Below, in pieces: positions 11,029-61,145 of a DNA stretch of 64,000 nucleotides. The notes under the pieces were generated by a model. That model was not told the DNA's origin. It was given only the letters and a program-made list of their open reading frames with translations, and made no database searches. The stretch is taken from positions 4,907,186 to 4,971,185 of the forward strand of contig JADCRB010000001.1 of NCBI GenBank assembly GCA_021464245.1, given 5' to 3'. The DNA is from Carallia brachiata. Its lineage: Eukaryota; Streptophyta; Magnoliopsida; Malpighiales; Rhizophoraceae. The translations under genes were made by a program, and so were the position numbers. Position 1 is the stretch's first letter. The number at the start of each line of letters is the position of its first letter.

Positions 11029-12390
11029 TCATGACATATTTGCCGTTTTTACAGGATACAAATGAATTCTGTCGGACCAAGCATTTCTGTCATCTGGGTG
11101 GATATCTGAAATGGATTTCCAAACTGCACTATTGCACTTAAAGCCACTTCCAAAAGAAATTTGCCAGATGAGGTCTCCCTTCTTCACCTTCCCCTTCGCT
11201 TCAAGGTAAGAAAGCTCATACCAAACTGAAGAGGAAGAGGTGTTACCAAATCTATATAGTGTCATCCGTGAAGCTTCTCCATCTTCCTCTTCGAGCTTTA
11301 AATTTTTCGTAATAGCATCAATGATAGCCCTTCCACCAGCATGTATACAGAAATGCTTAAAAGCCTTTTTGAATTTTGGAACGTACATTTCCTTTTGTCT
11401 TTCTCCTGTTGCCATAAGCCGTCCTTTCCTGGAAATCAAAGACCACAGATATCGGAGCTGCTCAAGGAATGGCAAAACAAGTGGCCCCAACTCAGATACA
11501 TTGGTCCTTAAGCCATTGCCTGCTACATGTAAAAGGGCCCTTGATAAAGAGACCCCAACCTTGCCATCTTCATCTGATTGTTGATAGACAGAAAAGTAAG
11601 ATTCGTCATCAAATCCCATGTGGGTTCGGACAAGATGTTGAAGCTTATAGTTGGCTATCTGTTTGTGCTGCCTCTTGTTCGATAGCAGAATAGCAGCTCC
11701 ACCCATGCGAAATATAGTGTTGGCAACAAGCATGGACTTAGTTTGACCCGTGTAACCACTAGGAGTTACAGCTTCCATGCTCAGTACCAAGGCCAGTGAG
11801 TTGCTGTGAACCATGAAGAGCTCTTTGGCCAAGCTTATGGCCAACAGTCCGGCACTGCAGCCCATTCCGCTTAGGTTGATGCTCTTAACGTTGCTCCGGA
11901 ATCCAAATTTGTTTATAATCATTGCTGTGACGGATGGGGTTGGACAGAACAGACTACAGTTGCATATCAGAATATCAATGCTATGAGGGTCTATTTTGTG
12001 CTTGGAAAGAAGATGTTTGACAAGTGTGAAGAGGACTAGCTCAACTTCTTCTCCGGCTTTGTTCATAGTAGTATGAGGTGGTATTTGGTGCAATCCAGCA
12101 GGCATGCAGGCTTCATCTCCAATGCCTGATCTTTCCAAAACCCTTTCTTTGAAATCAATGCTCTCTGTGTTAAAGAAACCAGATAGCTCGAAATGTTCCG
12201 CGATCATGGCCTTTGGGGCTCGCAAGGCATCTGATGGGGCATAGCAGATGAAGTCTATGAGGTACACACCATTGGATAGTTTGGATCTGATGAAACCAAT
12301 TATTATATACAACAATGCCAGTATTAGACTAGAAGCCACCACAAAATGGAAAAAAGAGAAGGTGGGTGAGCTTGGAAGGGAGAAAAGCAT
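11029..12390 (-). CDS. 3-ketoacyl-CoA synthase (very-long-chain fatty acid elongase)
   Basis: Condensing enzyme of the ER fatty-acid elongase: joins malonyl-CoA to a long acyl-CoA, the first step of very-long-chain fatty acid synthesis for waxes, suberin and sphingolipids. Single exon of 453 residues. One hydrophobic N-terminal segment (about residues 10-35) is followed by the FAE1/type III PKS-like condensing domain and the C-terminal ACP-synthase III-like part. The catalytic triad is present: Cys178 (SGMGCSAG), His350 (HFCIHAGGR) and Asn383 (FGNTSSSS). It is shorter than the ~490-520 residues of typical members and resembles the short clade with KCS12/15/19, but the exact subfamily cannot be assigned by eye. 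One odd residue is Tyr380, where most members have His just before RFGNTSSSS. Frame intact; probably functional. Confidence 0.93.
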   Translation of the reverse strand: MLFSLPSSPTFSFFHFVVASSLILALLYIIIGFIRSKLSNGVYLIDFICYAPSDALRAPKAMIAEHFELSGFFNTESIDFKERVLERSGIGDEACMPAGLHQIPPHTTMNKAGEEVELVLFTLVKHLLSKHKIDPHSIDILICNCSLFCPTPSVTAMIINKFGFRSNVKSINLSGMGCSAGLLAISLAKELFMVHSNSLALVLSMEAVTPSGYTGQTKSMLVANTIFRMGGAAILLSNKRQHKQIANYKLQHLVRTHMGFDDESYFSVYQQSDEDGKVGVSLSRALLHVAGNGLRTNVSELGPLVLPFLEQLRYLWSLISRKGRLMATGERQKEMYVPKFKKAFKHFCIHAGGRAIIDAITKNLKLEEEDGEASRMTLYRFGNTSSSSVWYELSYLEAKGKVKKGDLIWQISFGSGFKCNSAVWKSISDIHPDDRNAWSDRIHLYPVKTANMS

Positions 12391-12485
12391 TCTTTAATTT
12401 CTGTTGATATGAGTATTGGAAAAGTCACAGGCTGCAGCAGTCTGATGGTTTCTGCTCCTGCAACGTAGTGCAACAGCCACAAAGT

Positions 12486-22779: not shown

Positions 22780-23676
22780 TGATCACTCAAATCCATCATT
22801 TTCAAGCATTCAGTGATGGGACTCATAATAGAGTTGAAGTTCCTTATAAATCTTCAATAAAATGAAGCCAGTCCATGAAAACTTCGAACTTCTTTAATGG
22901 ATTTTGGTGCTGGCAACTCTTTGATTACACAGACTTTCTCAGGATCTGGCTTCAATCCCTCTCTAGCGACAATAAAGCTAAGAAACACAACCTCATAGCA
23001 CAAAAACATGGACTTCTTCAAGTTCACTTAAAGTTGTTCTTCATAAAGAACTTCAAAAACTTGTCGCAAGTGACTTAGATGTTCTTCCTTTGTGCTGCTA
23101 TAGATCAAAATATCATCAAAATAAACAATAAAAGGATTTTAAGAATGGTTTCATTAACTCTATCATCACTTGCATAAATGTGCTCGGTGCATTAGAGAGT
23201 CCAAATGGCATTACTAGCCATTCATAGAGTCCATTTGGTGTTTTTAAAGTTGTCTTCCACTCATCACCAGCTCTCAGTCTAATTTGATGATAACCACTCC
23301 TCAAATCAATTTTGGAGAATATCATAGAACCAGCCAATTGATCAAGCATGTCTTCCAATCGTGGAATAGGAAAACAATACTTGATTGTGATTTTATTGAT
23401 GGCATGACTATCGACACACATCCTCCAAGAACTATCCTTCTTTGGGGCGAGCAAAGATGGACAAGCGCATGGATTTTTGCTTTCTTGCACTAGGCCTTTG
23501 GCAATCAACTCCTCCACTTGTCTTTGTATCTCTATTCGCTGCATAGGTGGCATCCTATATACTGGTTGATTTGGTAAAGGTGCTATCGGAACCAAATCAA
23601 TAACATGTTGAATGCTTTTCATAGGTGGCAAATCCTTAGGTAATTCACTAACTAATTTTGCAAATTCCTTGAGCAA
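22780..23676 (-). pseudogene. Reverse transcriptase remnant of the chromovirus
   Basis: The frame 23676-23116 holds the fingers and palm: [44 protein letters not shown] and [17 protein letters not shown]. The YFDD catalytic box follows in another frame at about 23108-23125, because of a one-base shift in the T/A-rich stretch near 23130-23140. Catalytic residues are preserved but not in one frame. Confidence 0.85.
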
Positions 23677-23741
23677 TTGCTACACTTTTGGAGCATATTT
23701 GGAGTCATTTTCAACATGGACAGCTTGTACCACCTTACCAA

Positions 23742-33234: not shown

Positions 33235-34860
33235 TCAGGAGGTGGGAAGCCACTCAGGGCCATCAATGAAACTGATTGAGATGAATGGCTCGGCCTCCTC
33301 GTCTGTGAGTTCCCTCGACCATGACACTCTTCCTCCAAAATCAGCCCCGGGTCCTGAACACTTGTACTGTCCATAAAATACAGTCCTGCCAGATATTTGA
33401 AGGGCAATTCGGTTACTTATATGGGGCACGGTAAGACCATATCGATTAGCATTCTCCTTTTGGTCTGACTGGCTGCTTTTTGGGAATCAATTAAGCTAAT
33501 TTAACATAATTTCGTTTGAGAGTGATAGAGTGTGTGCGTGCGTGCGTGTGTGTGTATTTGTGTGATATTGACGGGTGTGGTAATGGACTTGAGTGAGTGG
33601 GGATAGGCAGAGAAGGCCAACATTTCTCTGTTTTTGTCTCCCCAATTGTACCATCCTCTTGGGGTGATGATCTTATCCATGTAAGTGTAAGCAAAGACAA
33701 CTCTGGAGAAAGTGCCCCACGCCCTGCCCAAGTACAGTGCACCCGAACCCGTAACCGTGCAGTTGACAAAGGAGAATCCCGTTTCCTCGAGCAAGCTGTT
33801 CCTCTTCTGCGCAGTCAAGGCTCCCAAGCTATTTGTTATGGCATGCAAATGGCAATTCTCATAGAAGGATAGCCCATTCCCAAATATGAAATCCACAGAA
33901 CCTTCAATGTAGCATTCTTTGAAGTAATGCCTCCCAATGTGATCATAGAGTGTGTCCTGTGCCCCAGTGAAATTGCATCGTATGAATGCTGCCTTGTCTG
34001 CTGATATTCTTAGCGCAACTGCTTGCTTTCCTAAAGCTCCTGATGGTGGCAAAGGGGCCTTGTTCTGTAATAATATAGTAAAAACGCCATCAAAACTTTG
34101 TTGCGCTAATTCGAAATGAACTGGAGGCAATTATTAAACCAAAAACAAAAATAAAAAATGCAAAAAAGTCGTAGCAGAAACGGTGCAAGTAATCTCAAAT
34201 TCCTGAAGACAGCAGACCTTGAAGGTTATGTCCTTTGCAATGAAATAGGGAGAATTGACAGAAAATGTTGCAGAGCCATAGGTACCCAATGGAAGGCCAT
34301 TCTGTCCCATTTTGTTTGCTGTATCGTCCCACTCGATTATAGTCTTGTCTGCACCAGCACCTTTCAGGGTAATGTAAGCCATCGTCGCAGTAATTTCAAC
34401 CTTCTCCCTGCATTTTCCTTCCTATTTAATTTCTGATTTTACTAAATATGCTTGAAGCAAACGGCATAGAACATTATTTTTCGTTGTAAAATTTGAGCTA
34501 AATCAAAGCAATGACTCAGTCAGCAATGAGTGGGAACATTTTCAAGGTGAAAGATATACCTGTAAGTCCCTGCACTAATGGAGATAACCACCCTGCAATT
34601 GTTGATGAGCGGCAACGAATTAATGGCCTTTTGCACAGAAACAAAGTGTCCCAGGCCTTGTTTCTTGTTAACTTTGATTGTAGAACAAGGCTTGAACATT
34701 TTCTCTGATTTCTGGTGAGGTCATGCTTGAAAGAATCTACCTTTTTAACCCACTTGAGGTAAGCTTCTTCCTCGATTATGGACCCCTCAGGCCTATTTGA
34801 AGCAAGCAATGAATTTGCGTTTTCCAGCAACAATGTCAACAAAAATAGCTTCAGCATCAT
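33235..34860 (-). CDS. Pectin methylesterase (type II, pectinesterase 53-like) with one frameshift
   Basis: Pectinesterase (EC 3.1.1.11) removes methyl esters from cell-wall homogalacturonan. Four exons on the - strand: 34860-34560, 34407-34218, 34064-33622 and 33385-33235, all with GT-AG borders. Signature blocks are present: SAGTYREKV (across exons 1/2), [19 protein letters not shown] and GSVDFIFGN (the two catalytic Asp), LGRAWG and the end FIDGPEW. A hydrophobic N-terminus (residues 1-17) fits a secretory signal; there is no long inhibitor pro-domain, hence type II. Exon 1 needs a one-base shift in the A-run at 34699-34702: the signal-peptide frame runs out of phase just before [10 protein letters not shown]. 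With the shift the product would be about 361 residues. Either a recent pseudogene or a homopolymer sequence error; an internal ATG (34699) would make a product without signal peptide. Confidence 0.88.
33528..33560. repeat. (GT)n-like tract in pectinesterase intron 3
   Basis: Interrupted GTGTGTGCGTGCGT run within the last intron of the pectinesterase gene. Confidence 0.7.
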
Positions 34861-49483: not shown

Positions 49484-51495
49484 TAAGCTATGGGTTTTAG
49501 TTTTAGTTTGTTTCAGTTTCAGAGGTTTGTTCAAGAGTATGAATGGTTTTATCTTGTGTTTCTAGAACAACTAGTTTTGTGGGGGTATTTATGATTACTG
49601 TTGAGGTTGATGGACCTGTTGAAGCAGTGAATTCTATTTTTGTTAGCTATTCCTTACTGATTTTAAAAAATTCTAATTTATGGGTTTGGACTTGTTTCTA
49701 ACTCTCGTGTGAAACTTGTAAAGGTTTAAAGGTTGGGTTTTTATGTGCTTTGGGTTTATCAACCTTTACTATAGATAAATCAGTTTGTTGGAGATGTTTT
49801 TTTATCCTAGTTAATGATTTCCTATGGTTTGAAGGTTGGCATTTGTAAAGTTATTTTGTTCAATAATACTCTTTAGATTCTTATCTTCAGAGTCATTTGA
49901 AAATTTATATGGAGAGCTTTAACCTTAGTATCTCTATGATTGAAAGCAATTCTCCTGGATGAGGTGGTCAGATTGAATTGCCTTACCATCTATATCCCAT
50001 TTTGGTATTTTTTGTTTATGTAAGATAGGAATTATGTTTTATCAAAAGGCCATTCAAAATAAGGATATTCTGTTTTAAAACATTGATTAGTTTCAGTGCA
50101 ACTAGAACAATCAAAAAACAGAATAAGGATTTTATTTTGATTATAAAATCATAATATTGCTCATGCCTTTCATCAAGAAAATGATTAAAAACCAAATTCT
50201 TTTTTCTTTGTTATAATCAGCATAGAAATCCTTTTGCAAAATGGTTTTGTCAAGAAGAAACTCTTTTTCCAAAACATTTACTTGGTTTTTTGTAATAGAA
50301 GAAAATGTTGGAGAAGTTGGTGGACATTCTGATTTTTCTTCTGGTTGGTATATTGAGTGAGGTATAGTGTTTTCATAATTTACTTGTGCATGGAAGTGCT
50401 GGGTATTTCTGATATAGAATGTTAGCTTTGACTATTGGGAGTTTTGAGCTTGATGGTATATTTATGACATAAGGGAGTTTAGAGTTCCTTCCAAGATCAA
50501 TAGTATTGTTGAAGCTTGATCTAAAAACCTAGAACTTACAGATCTGGGGATCTTATCAAACTTCAAACTGACCTTATCATTATTATATTGAGTAATATTA
50601 ACTAAATTTGGATTTGGTTCTAAGGGTTGATAAGATTCCAGCTTTGTTGCTCCTTCAGGGGTACATTTCTCTGGAAGAGAAACATCTTTCCAATGAATGG
50701 CTTTAGGAATTGTGATGTTTGATTTAGATAAATTTGTTTGTAAGAGAATTGTTTCCCCTCTTTTGAAGTGATGTTTATGTTTTGTATACTAATTGCAGAG
50801 GTTATAAGTTTATAATGAATGCGGAAAACCAATGCAACTAGAATTGATCCTTTTAACATTTTATAGTTATTGGTTTTAATCTGCAAAATAACACTTTCTA
50901 AAACATTTTCATCATTTAAAGAAATGGCCAAGTTGGGATAACAATCAAAACTGATTGACCCTGAGTTTAAAGTAGACTCTATTGTTTCAAGAAGGAATCA
51001 TAAAACTCTAGATGTCTAGCATCTCTGAGGACTGCAAGAATTCACGTCTAGGCCTTCACAAGTTAAGGGTTTATAACCAATTTGGATGAGACCAATATGG
51101 ATATACATAAAGCCTTTTGATTTATGGTTTTGTAAGGCTTTTTGGTAAGAAGATGAATAGATTCAAATGGTTTAGAAGAGGAATTTCTCTTTCTTTAGTT
51201 TTAATACAGAGATCTGATTTAAATGGAGTTTAGAAAGAGAGAATTTGGAAGACTAATATATCTCGCTTGGTTTAACTCATGAAATTTCCCAATTATCCAT
51301 ATTTTTAAAATTTTCATATGTTATTTCTTCTCTACTTACTACTCTATGGATCTTAGAGGATTTTGAGGTCAAAAAGTTAGAAAGAGAAGTTGATCTACAA
51401 AAATTAAAATCCATATTTTGAAATAATTTAAACTGTGGATATGATAGATTATTCCAGTTATACTCCGCGACAACCTTAGACTTATTGCCCTGCAT
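49484..51495 (-). pseudogene. Pararetroviral movement-protein and downstream region
   Basis: - strand open pieces at 51495-51277 and 50931-50620 (MLKGSILVALVFRIHYKL is readable) match in position and style the 5' movement-protein region, directly downstream of the primer-site-like motif. 50600-49490 remains partly coding-like on the - strand (TKIEFTASTGPSTSTVI). A + strand copy of 50745-51000 lies at 60889-61140. The movement-protein call rests on genome position and residue pattern and is an inference. Confidence 0.65.
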
Positions 51496-52433: not shown

Positions 52434-53212
52434 TGTAACGCGTAAATTTCGAGTTTAAAATAATTAAACTCGAAAATACAAAAATAAATTACAATAAAAA
52501 TTTAAAAATAAAAGAAAATTTACGTGGGGTCGATCTCCGTAGATCATCCGATTAGTGTTCCTTTTTTGACTCCGTCAAGAGTTGTACGAGCTTGATCTTG
52601 ACAGCAGTAAATTCCATAGCTTTTTCTTGAACTGGGTAGACTGAAACTGGATCTGGTTAGGACGTTTGAGCTACGTTTAGGAACCGTAGAGACTTGATCT
52701 GAGCCGATCTTGGTTAATTTCACCGAGGGTCGAAGGGACTTATTCTCGGATGAGCTGCCTGGATTTTGCTGAGGGTCGTATGAGGCTTAATCCCAGCCGG
52801 ATTTGAAATATTTTGATTTTTTTTTCAGATATATATTCTCACAGATCCAGATCTGATACGATCGGAGAATATAAATCTAAAATAACTTTACAAACGGAAA
52901 TAACAAATTTTTTTTTTTGACTTTATACCTGAGATATCTTTCTCAAAAGAGTTAAAAATTATATCACAGAGTACGTAAAAATAAACTTTTTTTTTTCTAC
53001 TATCTCTCTCTTCTTTGCCTCTTTTTTTTTTTCTACCTGCTCTCTGCGCTCTCTCTTATTCAATTTGGGGAGGCCAATTTATAAGCCTCCCCCACCTGCC
53101 TGCCACCAACCATTTGGTTGGTGGCAATTAATTGTGGCTGGCAGCTGTCAACCTTGACTTCAAGGTTGGCGGCTGCCAACACATTTTTTTTTTTTTAATT
53201 TCCTTATTTACA
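52434..53212 (-). repeat. 3' LTR of the Tat-like element (full copy)
   Basis: 779 bp, + strand start TGTAACGCG and end TTATTTACA. On its inner side it is followed not by the PPT but by AAAGT and 255 bp of pararetroviral sequence (53213-53467), then by a 47-bp repeat of the LTR edge (53468-53514). Confidence 0.92.
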
Positions 53213-53467
53213 AAAGTCTTCGAGGAGATCTTCAGCACTTGAGCTTGAAGAAAATGATACTGAGAGTTCTTGCTCCATTTGTTTAGCACCATCATATATT
53301 ATTCTTGAGTTTTGGCAGCAGCAAGCTGGCTTTGTCAATGGGATTTAGCAACCAAACAAGCAGCATGAGCTCCGTCCACAATGAGTTTAGGTTGTTTTGT
53401 TAGACCTGGCAAGGCTCTTTTCTAATTTTTATTAAGCCATTCTCAGACTGTTGATATGGACACAGAG
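53213..53467 (-). repeat. 255-bp copy of flanking viral sequence inside the element
   Basis: Same sequence as 59606-59860, which is the genuine pararetroviral flank on the right side of the element (about 97% alike by eye). It includes the AAAGT target duplication at its LTR side. Confidence 0.9.
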
Positions 53468-53527
53468 GTTGGCGGCTGCCAACACATTTTTTTTTTTTAA
53501 TTTCCTTATTTACAAATGCCCCCACTT
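53468..53527 (-). promoter_or_regulatory. LTR edge and polypurine tract
   Basis: 53468-53514 repeats the terminal 47 bp of the LTR (- strand TGTAAATAAGG..). It is directly preceded by the polypurine tract AAGTGGGGGCATT (- strand, 53515-53527), so this is the original 3' LTR start. Confidence 0.85.
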
Positions 53528-53662: not shown

Positions 53663-54178
53663 TCAACAGGAAACAGATAAGATCCTGAGAAAGTTAGCAG
53701 CCCAGCCAATATAAAAATTGAAGTCTTGGCTCCAGGTGAGTTCGAGCTTCCATGGCTCGCAAAGGCTGGCAAAGGTTCTTTGAAGTTCCAAAGCTCTGGT
53801 CAGGATGATCCAGTAGGCAAAGAACTTGAACTTCCCCAAGAGGAAGGCCCAACACCTTGGAACTTCAAGACCGACACACAGAGAGACTGACTGTAGTAAT
53901 GATTCCCAAGTATGCTCCGACGTAAGGAGAGTAGTTGGAACTTCCCTGTACGTCGCCACATCCAAAGGAAGATTAGGATGATTGCAGCTTCTCATCCCTC
54001 TGTGGTAGATGTGAATTAGGGAGAGTAGTTGGAACTCCATGACACCGATGACGCTGGAGACTGAGTTTCGAGTACTTTTACGGATCCCTCGAGGAAGACT
54101 ACTCCTTCTTTTCTTAGCTCGTGCGCCTCCAACTTCTTGATCAAAGAACTTCTTAGGACAAGTGCAGAGACTAGCCAT
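53663..54178 (-). CDS. Unidentified ORF in the retrotransposon 3' region
   Basis: 171-residue open frame with start context AAAATGGCT, preceded by CT-rich leader sequence and a TATA box. The N-terminal part is basic (KKRRSSLPRGIRK), the C-terminal part hydrophobic with Trp/Phe/Leu. I do not recognise it. It may be a second captured gene piece or a lineage-specific extra ORF; a chance frame cannot be excluded. Confidence 0.4.
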   Translation of the reverse strand: MASLCTCPKKFFDQEVGGARAKKRRSSLPRGIRKSTRNSVSSVIGVMEFQLLSLIHIYHRGMRSCNHPNLPLDVATYREVPTTLLTSEHTWESLLQSVSLCVGLEVPRCWAFLLGKFKFFAYWIILTRALELQRTFASLCEPWKLELTWSQDFNFYIGWAANFLRILSVSC

Positions 54179-54232
54179 TTTCTTTTGAGAAGAAGAAGAA
54201 CTGAGGGGTGAGTATTATGATTCGGACATGCA

Positions 54233-54443: not shown

Positions 54444-54700
54444 ACCTTATCTTGTTGGTCGCCCTAGCGGGGCCCAAGGCGCAGCGCCAAGTCAAGGTCG
54501 GCCTCGTCTGGTGGGTCGATGATGTTGACGTTGCTAGAGCTTCCCGGCTGGTTGATGGTGCTAAAATATTCTGGGAAGAGAGGCAAAGTTTTGCCGGAAT
54601 GACTTCCTTTTGCTAGAAACGTCTCTCCTAAACTTAAGTACTTAGGAGGGATGAACCTTTGACTGACTCTATAAGACCACCAGGACCAATACGCATGCTC

Positions 54701-55083
54701 CTACAGGCTACTGCTTTGATTGTTATAGCCTGAAGAGATCATTGCAGTGGTAGAACTGGGACCTACTTCATTTGAAGGCGAAGCTGTACCGGTGGGATCT
54801 ACTATCGGAACAACAGACTGTGCTTTGAAAAAAGCAGTTCTCAGTGTTGGTTTCTTCCTGCTTCTCCGATTCTGGAACCAATAAAACACATTTTTTCCTT
54901 CGATTGCCCCAAGCTGGCGCAATCGTGAGACAAGTTGGTGAATCTGAGATGCATTAGGAATAATACCTCCATTGTTGCGGAAGACTTCCTCTAAAATTTG
55001 CAGTTATGCCATAGTTGGTTGCCACCTTGTGCGGGGTGACTTTTCTCTTCTCCCTTGTCTTGAGGTTCTGCAACTGGTTCCAT
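54701..55083 (-). pseudogene. WUSCHEL/WOX-type homeodomain sequence inside the retrotransposon
   Basis: The - strand frame from about 55027 reads a near-complete WOX homeodomain: RWQPTMA, one stop (TAA, 55004-55006), LQILEEVFRNNGG, PNASQIHQLVSRLRQLG, then the diagnostic helix 3 IEGKNVFYWFQNRRSRKK. A Ser/Thr-rich tail ends at 54701. The stop sits where relatives have Gln, so one C-to-T change could explain it. The frame upstream of the homeodomain is basic (GRREKSPRT); the nearest ATG (55083, MEPVAEPQ) is in another frame, implying one more indel near 55040. WOX proteins are plant developmental transcription factors; here the domain is carried by a retroelement, so this is a captured, probably broken copy. 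No WUS box is seen. Confidence 0.85.
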
Positions 55084-55170
55084 CTTTTGTGTGGCAGACG
55101 AGCAAAGGTCTAGTATGTGGTGAAGATCGGTTGAGACTGATGCTAGGTTTCAGACTCAACCCTCCGTCGC

Positions 55171-55180
55171 TTTTATATTT
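55171..55180 (-). promoter_or_regulatory. TATA-like box upstream of the homeodomain unit
   Basis: - strand AAATATAAAA about 90 bp upstream of the ATG at 55083; a plausible internal promoter for the homeodomain sequence. Confidence 0.45.
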
Positions 55181-55292
55181 TTGGGCCGTTCACAGTTTAT
55201 ACTCATGCGGGCCAGGAGTTGGATTGGATTTTGAACTTGGGTTCTGGACTGTGTCAGGAACTTGGAATTTTTGGGTTTTGGGTTTTGGATTG

Positions 55293-55638: not shown

Positions 55639-56697
55639 TTACACATAATACTGTTTCAGAAATTTACCATTGATTGGGCCGATTCGAACGCCTTCTTGGT
55701 CTGACAGCATGTAAGCGTTGTGAGTATAGGCCTCCTGCGCTAGGTATGGCCCGTTCCATTTGGAAGTAAGCTTGTCACCAGGCCGATGCTTCATGTTGAT
55801 GAGCCGTCGTACTGCAAGAACAAGGTTTCCAACTTGAAAAGATCGAGGGCGGACCCTGCGGTTGAACGTGTTGGTGAGCCGGGCTTGGTAGCATTCAAGT
55901 TTTGGTATCGACAGAGAATAAGTCCCCTTCAGGTTGTCCAGTTCTTTTGTCCTGAGTTGGCTATGTCCTTGCTCCTGTTTAGGATCAATACAATAAGAGA
56001 AAGGGGGTTGACCTTCTGAGCGTCGTGACTTCGGCACATAGCGTAGGACTGGAGTGGAGCTTGAAGATGCAACATCTTTCGGACGAAGTTCAGCAGGCTG
56101 TGGCAGCTTTTCATTTGTTGGAGCCTGGGGTTGGGCATTGGCAGGTTCTTCGACAGCTTTTCCCTTTTTGTGGATGCCCCCAGTCCAAGTAGCTTTTGAT
56201 GGAATGATCTCTGGATTTTCTGTATCGGTGTAGAAGACTGCATCCGCCAAATGTGATTCAGCATCATCGAACGGCTTTAAGTCAGCATTGACCTTTTGAA
56301 CGCCACCATTGTAGTACTTGAAGCACTGATGCAGGATTGAGAGCACAACTCCGTTTTCATGAATCCACGGTCGTCCTAGCAACATCTTATATGTGGTACG
56401 TGCATCGATCACGTGAAATAGAGTGCTAGAAGTGAGATTACCGATAGTTAGCTCCAAGCGAATCATCCCAATTGCTTTCTGTCCTCCTTGATTAAAGCCA
56501 TGAATCATCAAGCGGCTGTCTGATAATTCATCAATGCCGATGCCGAGCTCCTTTATGGTGGATTTTGGGATAATATTGACTGTCGAGCCATCGTCGATCA
56601 GAATACGTCGGACCTTCTGTTCTCTCACATAGCCTGATACATACAGCGGCCGATTGTGGGGTTTGGACCCCAGCAGGAGATCCTCATCTGAAAATGA
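55639..56697 (-). CDS. Protease fused in frame to integrase C-terminus (RT deleted)
   Basis: One long open frame. The 329 residues from 56628 begin with the retropepsin (DDGST at residues 12-15, LLGRPWIHE about 83-91), a linker (LRYVPKSRRSEGQ) and ELDNLKGTYSLSIPKLE. At about residue 245 (position ~55895) it passes directly into an integrase C-terminal GPY/F domain (VGNLVLAVRR, KWNGPYLAQEAY, IGPINGKFLKQYY). In autonomous relatives RT, RNase H and the integrase zinc finger and core lie between these parts. The frame is open across the junction, so the deletion product could be translated. Codons upstream of 56628 stay open to about 56697. Confidence 0.85.
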   Translation of the reverse strand, partial: SFSDEDLLLGSKPHNRPLYVSGYVREQKVRRILIDDGSTVNIIPKSTIKELGIGIDELSDSRLMIHGFNQGGQKAIGMIRLELTIGNLTSSTLFHVIDARTTYKMLLGRPWIHENGVVLSILHQCFKYYNGGVQKVNADLKPFDDAESHLADAVFYTDTENPEIIPSKATWTGGIHKKGKAVEEPANAQPQAPTNEKLPQPAELRPKDVASSSSTPVLRYVPKSRRSEGQPPFSYCIDPKQEQGHSQLRTKELDNLKGTYSLSIPKLECYQARLTNTFNRRVRPRSFQVGNLVLAVRRLINMKHRPGDKLTSKWNGPYLAQEAYTHNAYMLSDQEGVRIGPINGKFLKQYYV

Positions 56698-56699
56698 GA

Positions 56700-58262
56700 T
56701 AGCGGAGTAACATCCGACGTGATTTTGGCCGTCTGTTGCCCTGAGTTAGATCATTTGATGGCTGTGATTCAGCTGAGGTCTGGAGAGTATTGCTGACTTG
56801 ATTTTGCCACACTTCTGTTGATTGCAAAGCTATAAACAGCTGAGGGTTAGCGAGAAGGGTTTGGAGAGCTTCATATACCTTCTCCGTTGTCGACTTTTTG
56901 TTGTCGAGCGGCTCCTCCTTACGGTGTGTCACCTCTTCTGATGGTTTTGAAGTGATGGTGGTTGGTTTGCGAGGTTACGCCTTCCTGGTCCAGAATGATT
57001 TTATTCTGGCTTTTGAGCTTCATGATTAGCTCCTTCAGGACGAAACACTTCTCGGTTGGATGACTTACTATCCGGTGATATTTGCAGAATCTGGATCGCT
57101 GACTCGATCCTTTTCATTCGGCCGCTTGCACTCTGGGAGTTCGATCAGCTTCGCCTCCAAGAGTTGTTCAAGAATCGGGGACGTCTGAGTCGGGGAATGG
57201 ATACTGCTTTGCTCCAACTCTCGCAATGTCACCTTCCGCCTTTCCTGTTGTTTTGGCTGAGTTATTTGGGTCGGAGGATTTACCTTAGTTTTGGCGCCCA
57301 CTTTTACTGGTGCGGCTTCAACAGTCATCACTTCTTTTCCTTTTCCAGAGCTGTTGGGTTTCTTAATCTCCTTTCTGCCCCCTTGCTGGTCCAACTGGAT
57401 GGGAACCGTGCTTCCAGAAGTTTGGATGCTTATCTCCATATCATGTGCGCGGGTCGCCAGCTCTTCGAAGGTTCGGGGTTTGACACCCTGCAGGATATAT
57501 AACAGCTCCCAATGCATTCCCTGGATGCACATCTCTACGGCAGAAGTCTCTGTCAGGCGATCTTTGCAGTCCAAGCTGAGGGCACGCCATCTGTTGATGT
57601 ATTCGACAACGGGCTCTCCTTTCCTTTGTTTGGTGCTGGTAAACTCCATCATACTTACCGTCCTTCGAGTGCTGAAAAATCTGTTGACGGACTCTCGTTG
57701 TAGTTGTTCCCAACTGTCGATCGATTCTGGTTCAAGATTTATGAACCAGGCGAAAGCGGTCTCCCTGAGTGAACAAACAAACTGCTTCACCAAGAGATCT
57801 CTGTAAGTTCCTGTGCTGTTTGGGATCGCCTCGTCCGTCGAATTGTTGAAATTTGGGCGGCTGGTAGCCCAAAGGCATGTTGAGACTTTCAATCCGTCTG
57901 CAGTACGGTTTGACGTACATCTGTGATCCTTTGAAGGATGTAGCTTGGTGCAGGTGGATCGTATTAGCTATCATTTCCTGCAATTGTTGAACAGATAGCG
58001 AAGCCATAGAATTTGAGGGTGGCAGCTGTGTAGAACTACCTGGTCGCTTTTCTGCAGTGAAGACATCGGCTGGTGTGGCTTCTGGAGTGAAACCGGGTGG
58101 ATATGATTGCTCCTCGCAGATTTCAGAATCAATTTGGATCGGGGCCTTTCCTTTGAAAGCGACGATCTGTTGATCCTTTTCCTCTACGACTCTGATCAGC
58201 TGTAAAATTTTGTTCTCCAATTCTGAAATCCTTTCTTCTGTACTGGTCGTGTTGGTCATCAT
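56700..58262 (-). pseudogene. gag of the Tat-like element, frameshifted
   Basis: The ATG at 58262 opens a coiled-coil start (ISELENKILQLIRVVEEKD) and reaches PPKFQQFDGRGDPKQ, where a small deletion near 57800 changes frame. The capsid part continues in 57892-57068 (LVKQFVCSLRETAFAWF, EPESIDSWEQL, YINRWRALSLDCKDR). A His/Cys motif CKYHRIVSHPTEKC follows in a third frame at about 57040-57085. So gag is complete in content but broken by at least two shifts. Confidence 0.82.
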
Positions 58263-58802
58263 GACGGCAACAGATGAGACTCCGCGAAAGACTGGGGGAG
58301 AGAACTCTTCTGATTCCTCTGTGTGGATCTCTACATAATGAGTTGGATTCTGTTGAGCAGGCTTCGTCTTGTTGCCCCCGACTTCGATTGGGGTGGGTGA
58401 TCGACTCCTCCATGCGGCAAGAGAGTCAGGGGAGAGTTCCTGTTGTTGTGCAAGCTGTGGACTCTCCGTTTCAATGTTTTGTCAGGTTTGGACGGCAAGA
58501 AATTGTGTCCGTCCCCGAGTTTCTGGACCTGCATACCCAGGTAGGGTAGTTGATGCAGGCAATGGAGCCGTTGCCTTCTTGCTGTTACCGACAACTGTAC
58601 TTCTTTTTAGTGTCATTTAATGTGCTGAACACCTGTAAAATTTTTTTTTTTTACTTGTTTTTTTTACCTTTTTTTTTTTTTACTTTTTTACTTTTTTTTT
58701 TACTTTTTACTTTTTTTTTGTCTTTTTCTCATTTTTTTTCTCTCGGCTCCCTTTTACCTCTTTTTTTTTTTTTTAAGGAACAAGAGATGAGAGGTAAAGA
58801 TG

Positions 58803-58825: not shown

Positions 58826-59605
58826 TATAACGCGTAAATTTCGAGCCTAAAATAATTAAACTCGAAAATACAAAAATAAATTACAATAAAAATTTAAAAA
58901 TAAAAAGAAAATTTACGTGAGGTCGATCTCCGTAGATCCTCCGATTAGTGTTCCTTTTTTTACTCCTTCAAGGGCTGTACGAGTTTGATCTTGACAGTAG
59001 TAAATTCCACAGCTTTTTCTTGAACTGGGTAGACTGAAACTGGATCTAGTTTGGACGTTTGAGCTACGTTTAGGAACCGTAGAGACCTGATCTGAGCCGA
59101 TCTGGCTTAATTTCACCGAGGGTCGAAGGGACTTGTTCTCGGATGAGCTGCCTGGATTTTGCTGAGGGTCGTATGAGGCTTAATCCCAGCCGGATTTGTA
59201 ATATTTTGATTTTTTTTTTCAGATCTATATTCTCACAGATTCAGATCTGATACGATCGGAGAATATTAATCTAAAATAACTTTACAAACGGAAATAACAA
59301 TTTTCTTTTTTGACTTTGTACCTGAGATATCTTTCTCAAAAGAGTTAAAAATATATCACAGAATACGTAAAAATAAACTTTTTTTTTCTACTATCTCTCT
59401 CTTCTTTGCCTCTTTTTTTTTTTCCGCCTGCTCTCTACGCTCTCTCTTATTCAAATTGGGGAGGCCAATTTATAGGCTTCCCCCACCTGCCTGCCACCAA
59501 CCATTTGGTTGGTGGCAATTAATTGAGGTTGGCAGCTGCCAACCTTGACTTCAAGGTTGGCGGCTGCCAACACATTTTTTTTTTTTTTTAATTTTCTTAT
59601 TTACA
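58826..59605 (-). repeat. 5' LTR of the Tat-like element
   Basis: 780 bp, + strand start TATAACGCG (one change from TG) and end TTATTTACA. Direct repeat of 52434-53212 with about 5% visible differences. It contains a TTGGTTGGTGG palindrome-like region and long T runs. Confidence 0.92.
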
Positions 59606-60735
59606 AAAGTTTTCGAGGAGATCTTCAGCACTTGAGCTTGAAAAAAATGATACTGAGAGTTCTTGCTCCATTTGTTTACCACCATCATATATTATTCTTG
59701 AGTTTTGGCAGCAGCAAGCTGGCTTTGTCAATGGGATTTAGCAACCAAACAAGCAGCATGAGCTCTGTCCATAATGGGTTTAGGTTGTTTTGTTAGACCT
59801 GGCAAGGCTCTTTTCTAGTTTTTATTAAGCCATTCTCAGACTGTTGATATGGACACAGAGGGTGGTGGCATGTCATATTTATTCCACCATCAAACTTTGA
59901 ACCTTTTGGTCAACATGAAACCATCCCTTCTCTGAGAATATTCATATTCCCAAGCCAAGACCCAAGGAACAAAGAAATTAGCACAAAAAGAGAAAAGTGG
60001 TGGTAATTTCTTTTCCTGAGCAGAAGGAATATATTCAAATTGAAATAATTGGAAACTAGGTGTTATTGCATCATCAAGGATTTCGGGGACACAACCAAAA
60101 TAGTCCCACCATTGGATGAAACAGTTTGGAATATCTGTGGGTTTATATTCTTTATCTAAGAATATCAACCAAGTATGGCTTCTGTTTGTGTTTTGGAAAA
60201 AGAACATGTTAAACGATGCTTGTTGATAATCCGAGTAGGTATAATAAGGGAAATGGTTAGTCTGTGGTTTATATTTTTCTGGGAAAGATTTACGAGCTGA
60301 AGGGTTTCCAAAATCAATGGGATGAAGAATATTTTTTATATTGCTTTGGGAAAAAGCAATTTCATCCCAATAATATTTGTGGTATGGTGTTTAAATTTTA
60401 CAAACTAGGGTTTGGTTTCAGAAAGAATGACCGTATAGTATTCAAGGTGTTTATATAAATCCCAAGGTTTATATTCCCCATTTTCCCCAAAAAGAAATCG
60501 AATTGCTTGTGAGGGGTTATGATGGCAAAACCCATCCTCAACAAGCACAACATTTTGAAAAGCTGGTATTAAAAAATACTTAGTCCTTTTGAAAACGGTC
60601 TGAGCAGGTTTATTGTAGTTGAAAACATGTTGAGATAGGTGTTTAGAAGAAGATCCTATCTCGGGTTGTTTTGAAATGGGTTTAAAAATCATACATACAG
60701 ATTTTTCTTGAAATGACTGAGGTTTATTTTGTGAG
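59606..60735 (-). pseudogene. Pararetroviral ORF of unknown function
   Basis: - strand coding pieces 60692-60405 and 60207-59890 (readable: CFIQWWDYFGCVPEILDD, NFFVPWVLAWEYEY) continue in frame, with stops, to the retrotransposon insertion site. On the other side of that insertion the frame ends near 52370 (MAQSNEDDCYEILPPV). It lies upstream of the viral promoter, so in a circular genome it would be the last ORF after RNase H. Function unknown; caulimovirid membership rests on context and Trp-rich motif style. Confidence 0.6.
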
Positions 60736-60888
60736 TTTTTCCTTTGATTGTTAATCGAGTATTATTAGCAGTAGAAAGTTTTTCAGAAGTCTTTTCATGA
60801 AATTTACTAAGTACTATACTCTCTTTGATACAATTTAAATCTGCACTTGTATCAAATAAAATAATAGTATCTAGTGAAAAATTACCCT

Positions 60889-61145
60889 TCTTGGAACAGT
60901 AGAGTTTACTTTAAACTCAGGGCTAATTAGTTTTGATAGTTATCCCAACTTGATCATTTCTTTAAATCATGAAAATGTTTTAGAAAGTGTTATTTTGCTG
61001 ATTAAAACCCATAACTATAAAATGTTAAAAGGATCAATTCCAGTTGCATTGGTTTTTCGCATTCATTATAAAGTCATGACCTTTAAATTCACTATCACTA
61101 AACATAAACATCACTTCAAAAGAGGGGAAACACTTCTCTTATGTT
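60889..61145 (+). pseudogene. Inverted copy of movement-protein segment
   Basis: + strand copy of the segment found at 50745-51000 on the - strand (MLKGSIPVALVFRIHYK readable). It directly follows a - strand protease fragment (60740-60888), so an inversion junction lies near 60888. Confidence 0.75.

Follow-up and report, generated by a model that had tools for sequence, protein, structure and literature searches.

Does a WUSCHEL (WUS)-type homeodomain that lies inside a retrotransposon of Carallia brachiata belong to the element and its family, or did a host sequence come to rest there at a single place? The question is raised by a stretch of 64,000 nucleotides (contig JADCRB010000001.1, positions 4,907,186 to 4,971,185 of the forward strand; herewith referred to as the window), in which the minus strand holds a Tat-type Ty3/gypsy element with a WUS-like gene. 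The sequence-only reading of this window had proposed a WUS-type homeodomain frame downstream of the integrase, with a TATA-like box upstream, and its capture by, or evolution within, the retrotransposon family. The frame at 54701-55003 (minus strand), which includes IEGKNVFYWFQNRRSRKK, was indeed found to match the Pfam homeodomain with 34.4 bits (cut-off 22.9); it lies downstream of the integrase C-terminus (55639) and upstream of the 3′ long terminal repeat (LTR; 52434-53476), in the sense orientation relative to gag and pol, and the TATA box was confirmed at 55170-55177. The homeodomain frame stands as first reported but its extent does not, the gene reaching from 54464 to 55083 with a WUS-box and an EAR-like tail, as follows:

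54464..55083, minus strand: WUS-like gene with the start codon at 55081-55083, broken by a length change close to the N-terminus and by two in-frame stops
54842..55030, minus strand: WUS-type homeodomain (PF00046)
54572..54589, minus strand: WUS-box TLPLFP, read from the sequence
54476..54496, minus strand: EAR-like tail LDLALRL, read from the sequence
55168..55228, minus strand: core-promoter-like conserved block with the TATA box (TATAAAAG at 55170-55177), delimited by column identity among 44 copies

As for the defects of this copy, described earlier as one stop plus one indel, the frame-changing length difference near the N-terminus was recognized, but the in-frame stops are two in number (55004-55006 and 54701-54703).

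For identification of other copies, the whole assembly (337.5 Mb in 164 contigs) was searched with a fragment of the window. After scoring of 150 among 1,803 first-look candidates, the WUS-like frame was found at 150 places (the window included) with 80-100% identity, and this recurrence indicates that the frame is not a product of chance. For a sample of copies not chosen by the WUS-like gene itself, the last 104 residues of the integrase were used as the query (150 matches scored among 1,666 first-look candidates), 40 of the 150 scored matches were hand-picked down the list, and the downstream stretch of each was fetched. All 40 copies were found to carry the WUS-like gene downstream of the integrase: reading in any frame, the homeodomain motif EGKNV[FY][FY]WFQN was detected in 36, the WUS-box [TI]L[PS]LF in 38 and the EAR tail LDLELx[LI]G in 39, and the exact string ATATAAAAG was present in 31. 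The gene is fully open in 11 of these copies, and likewise in 11 of a second set of 44 distinct copies that were picked mainly by homeodomain similarity and share at least one member with the first. Among 70 pairs of copies less than 1.5% divergent, 35 differ by four or more indels, most commonly single-base deletions; this suggests assembly errors, as would arise in the repeats of an unpolished long-read assembly, and the fraction of open copies is therefore probably a lower bound. Some element copies on different contigs are identical, suggesting either recent activity or unresolved haplotypes. Taken as a whole, the presence of the WUS-like gene throughout the family and its spread with the element are well supported, in agreement with the earlier proposal, and intact copies exist.

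The intact copies encode intronless proteins of 200-207 amino acids, in which the homeodomain (residues 18-80) is followed by a linker, the sequence TLPLFPEY and a C-terminus such as ELDLELHLGPR. For one intact copy, L030, the PF00046 match reaches 48.2 bits, and its homeodomain matches the solved homeodomain of WUSCHEL (6ry3) with an E value of 3.9e-18 and that of STENOFOLIA with 5.2e-16. Under the definitions T-L-X-L-F-P for the WUS-box and [LVI]x[LVI]x[LVI] for the EAR motif, given in the accessible part of PMC9781121, the element protein possesses the WOX homeodomain, WUS-box and C-terminal EAR of the WUS clade. The TATA box is situated about 94 nucleotides upstream of the start codon. Over the 44 copies, column identity is 96-98% within the TATA block and 86-92% in the preceding 120 nucleotides, and 64% at the far upstream edge, the last value reflecting in part where the sequences were cut. 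A host promoter was searched for as a source of this block, but when promoter and gene together were compared by blastn with ten host WOX loci, the TATA block found no match, the matches obtained being the helix-3 core and four of 15-24 nucleotides. In copy L027, the TATA-bearing block upstream of the WUS-like gene is present in tandem near-copies.

From which host gene could this sequence have been derived? The element homeodomain is identical at 31-34 of 66 positions with those of two host WUS genes, and shares with both a one-residue insertion after helix 1, which is absent in seven other host WOX genes. Among named proteins, those scoring best against a host WUS gene come from Erythroxylum (74% identity), followed by Nyssa, Hevea and Camellia, and at a lower level by Turnera and Manihot, a pattern that tentatively points to Malpighiales. 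The sequence-only reading had seen in this domain a mixture of features from different WOX clades. This holds only in part: the WUS clade is indicated by the helix-1 insertion and also by the WUS-box (TLPLFP) and EAR tail, and the RRSRKK end of helix 3 may be simple divergence. In host WUS, the matches to the homeodomain and the WUS-box lie about 790 bp apart for only 27 unmatched residues, and introns are therefore probably located between them; in the element both are encoded in one frame, as would be expected from a captured, spliced mRNA. A phylogeny, proposed earlier as the way to the donor, did not reveal it beyond WUS-type: in the homeodomain tree (68 columns), three element homeodomains form one long-branch clade apart from WUS and the host WOX proteins, and 15 of the 21 inner branches remain open.

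A search of 5.8 billion public proteins, limited to relatives that have short exact words in common with the query, gave 399 proteins at E<=1e-5. PF00046 was present in all 120 listed, which are named WUSCHEL, homeobox, hypothetical or unnamed, with one oddly called oxygenase, and the best match was a WUSCHEL-like host protein with 47% identity over 45% of the query (81 bits). No close relative of the element WUS-like protein was found among the 120 matches listed in this short exact-word search. In contrast, relatives of the element integrase are common in eudicots, including Orobanche, Fagus, Sesamum and Malus, with 74-80% identity over nearly the full length. This difference suggests that, within a widespread kind of element, a single branch probably acquired the WUS-like gene, although in other species mobile copies may be masked by annotation pipelines. 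In the literature, no title or abstract opening was found to report a retrotransposon with a WOX or WUS gene, most subscription papers lying outside the search.

Is the gene maintained by selection? The ratio of nonsynonymous to synonymous substitution rates (dN/dS), named earlier as a check, was 0.27 for the homeodomain (bootstrap 0.13-0.54) between two homeodomain types in copies drawn regardless of the gene. For copy L030, drawn from an earlier set, the ratio was 0.39 (0.21-0.78) in comparison with the second type and 0.09 (0-0.48) in comparison with another subtype, and in none of the five pairs did the upper bootstrap limit reach 1. Between subfamilies, constraint on the homeodomain is thus supported. 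For the linker, dN/dS was 0.54-0.79 with intervals extending above 1, not distinct from neutral, and the contrast between shared and private variants in the 40-copy sample was absent there (p=0.62). Stop codons in this sample were found in none of 67 shared variants as against 8 of 100 private ones (p=0.022). When the 30 copies of the first homeodomain type were taken alone, the shared homeodomain counts (2 nonsynonymous to 4 synonymous) were too few for a test.

The second homeodomain type (YNDGG..VEGKNVYFWFQNRRHRE) is present in 10 of the 40 integrase-selected copies. Differences between the two types cluster at about nucleotides 100-340, the beginning of the gene being nearly identical in both, and a comparison with copy L085 shows the first differences inside the gene at about nucleotide 100. 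Judged from this distribution, the second homeodomain block is best read as a product of recombination with a divergent relative.

The element in the window is itself degraded. Between its two LTRs, around which no matching target-site duplication was seen on inspection by eye, the following parts were recognized:

58826..59869, minus strand: 5′ LTR, 95.1% identical to the 3′ LTR
52434..53476, minus strand: 3′ LTR, identified by comparison of the LTR pair
57732..58481, minus strand: N-terminal frame of gag, an open reading frame with no Pfam match above the curated cut-off
57068..57967, minus strand: gag core (Retrotrans_gag, PF03732, 50.6 bits)
55639..56745, minus strand: protease frame fused directly to the integrase C-terminus, with an Asp protease match slightly below the cut-off

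By internal deletion the element has lost reverse transcriptase, RNase H and the core of the integrase, and its integrase C-terminus is the same as in fuller copies. When a 100-residue query across the junction of protease and integrase was used, all 149 other scored matches began at residues 10-14, excluding the protease side; the deletion therefore looks private to the window copy, and the idea that the deleted pol represents an amplified derivative finds no support. A fuller organization was found in copy L032, in which the gene follows a pol frame with reverse transcriptase and two RNase H domains (RT_RNaseH, 82 bits, and RVT_3, 86 bits, beside RVT_1), plus a frame with the integrase core. 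Dual RNase H is reported across Tat elements in the part of PMC9289625 available to us, and the organization of L032 is that of Tat.

Several other features of the window lie outside the WUS-like gene. Behind a TATA-like string, a downstream frame at 53663-54214 (minus strand; MASLCTC..FFDQEVGGARAKKRRSS) has a start recognizable in 41 of 46 copies. As a candidate for a second captured gene it was rejected: because it has no Pfam match and its shared variants are 35 nonsynonymous to 8 synonymous, it is unsupported as coding. A fragment of a viral movement protein (PF01107) at 50620-50997 (minus strand) is probably the relic of an endogenous pararetrovirus, and part of it recurs as an inverted repeat with 89% identity at 60886-61095, on the opposite flank of the WUS-carrying element. 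Three further minus-strand frames were noted, which resemble a 3-ketoacyl-CoA synthase (11029-12393), a pectinesterase (33501-34130) and the Ty3/gypsy reverse transcriptase of another element (23116-23679).

Compared with WUSCHEL, the element protein has the same order of parts, namely a homeodomain in which one residue is added after helix 1, IEGKNVFYWFQN, the TLPLFP WUS-box and a C-terminal EAR motif, but it is retrotransposon-borne, intronless, 200-207 residues long and identical at only about half of the homeodomain, with helix 3 ending in RRSRKK or RRHRET in place of HKARERQ. Among known elements, the orchid Ty3/gypsy elements of the Tat family, near Ogre, likewise retain an acquired host-type domain through rounds of replication, according to the portion of PMC9289625 at hand; theirs is an m6A RNA demethylase with activity shown in vitro, whereas the gene described here is predicted to encode a transcription factor. 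Retand and other Tat-type elements resemble the present one in carrying an additional open reading frame, possibly DNA-binding, between pol and the 3′ LTR. In the accessible text of PMC11963269 these are antisense frames with TRP28, and sense frames at this position encode no known domain, while the frame found here is sense and encodes a WUS-type homeodomain; PF04195 was absent among the frames scanned, the antisense frames of the region being outside the scan. Host gene sequence inside an LTR retrotransposon is also known from maize Bs1 and other gene-transducing elements (PMC7264820, as far as its available part describes them), but unlike that group, the present element carries its gene family-wide and with signs of constraint.

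We consider it somewhat better than an even chance that this Tat-type family carries a complete, intronless WUS-type gene, likely derived from a host mRNA of the WUS clade after splicing, and that its product is a predicted DNA-binding repressor acting in trans for the element. After capture of the mRNA, the gene would be transcribed from its own TATA promoter apart from the LTR transcript, and the predicted protein would enter the nucleus and bind DNA through the homeodomain, while the WUS-box and EAR tail would recruit TOPLESS-type corepressors as in host WUS. The most likely use would lie in meristem stem cells, where the protein would determine the transcriptional state either of the cells themselves or of the element they harbour; by activity in stem cells that are the source of the germline, new insertions would be inherited, and swaps of the homeodomain block between subfamilies could change the target sites. 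A bolder version, to which we assign a rather low probability, is that the family has made WUSCHEL its own in the manner of a retrovirus with a captured oncogene, expressing a stem-cell transcription factor from a promoter of its own, holding cells in the germline-forming niche or timing its activity to it, and exchanging homeodomain modules to change its targets.

Several observations weigh against a protein function for the element. The gene is broken in most sampled copies (29 of 40 and 33 of 44), and in the 44-copy set three stops, two in the linker and one in the tail, are common to at least three copies, so that broken forms may also have been copied; these shared stops speak against strict constraint downstream of the homeodomain. 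By counts of shared and private variants, neither the WUS-box nor the EAR tail gives a clear sign of constraint of its own, and where the second homeodomain type is present, the majority of copies have ILPLFP instead of TLPLFP. In the 44-copy set, the homeodomain contrast of nonsynonymous to synonymous variants (4:12 common to at least three copies as against 36:22 private, p=0.011; linker, 33:16 as against 59:30) is biased because the copies were picked mainly by homeodomain similarity; within the unbiased 40-copy sample the constraint is only borderline (8:8 shared as against 23:6 private, p=0.053). Neither was an excess of TAAT, TTAATSS, TGAATGA(A), the G-box or TTAATTAA detected over 300 shuffles in the two LTRs of the window, and enrichment of WUS sites in these LTRs was rejected.

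Much of this would be expected if the gene were a passenger, a WUS mRNA captured once and copied without function, its apparent constraint reflecting a small number of founder lineages. This explanation, which we regard as possible though doubtful, accommodates the many broken copies, the near-neutral linker and tail, the stops common to at least three of the 44 copies and the lack of WUS-site excess, but it accounts poorly for the homeodomain dN/dS of 0.09-0.39, for the absence of shared stops in the integrase-selected sample, for the conserved TATA block, and for the persistence of open frames with WUS-box and EAR in a protein whose homeodomain is only about half identical to host WUS. The high conservation of the TATA block between the integrase and the 3′ LTR might also reflect an RNA or DNA signal for packaging, promotion or termination, the coding appearance being a relic; we judge this improbable, because between subfamilies the homeodomain changes faster at silent sites than in its protein sequence, which such a signal does not predict. 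Slightly less probable still is a role for or against host development, for instance as a competitor of host WUS tolerated or recruited by the host: all WUS-clade motifs are present, but the gene travels with the element, in some cases as identical copies on different contigs. The window copy alone, broken and near the 3′ LTR, might have been taken for a host WUS gene or retrocopy inserted at one locus, independent of the element life cycle. The earlier note had named a single local insertion with no other copy as the finding that would overturn its proposal; with the gene at the same position in 40 of 40 integrase-selected copies and 150 scored places of at least 80% identity, this explanation is rejected and its probability is negligible.

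When genomes of this sort are surveyed for homeodomains, many WOX frames that are in fact mobile will be counted as genes. In plants the germ cells are set aside late, from meristem stem cells, and for this reason an element able to steer WUS-type programs would gain a direct route to the next generation. The presence throughout this family of a WUS-type gene with constraint on its homeodomain makes the idea of such stem-cell steering testable.
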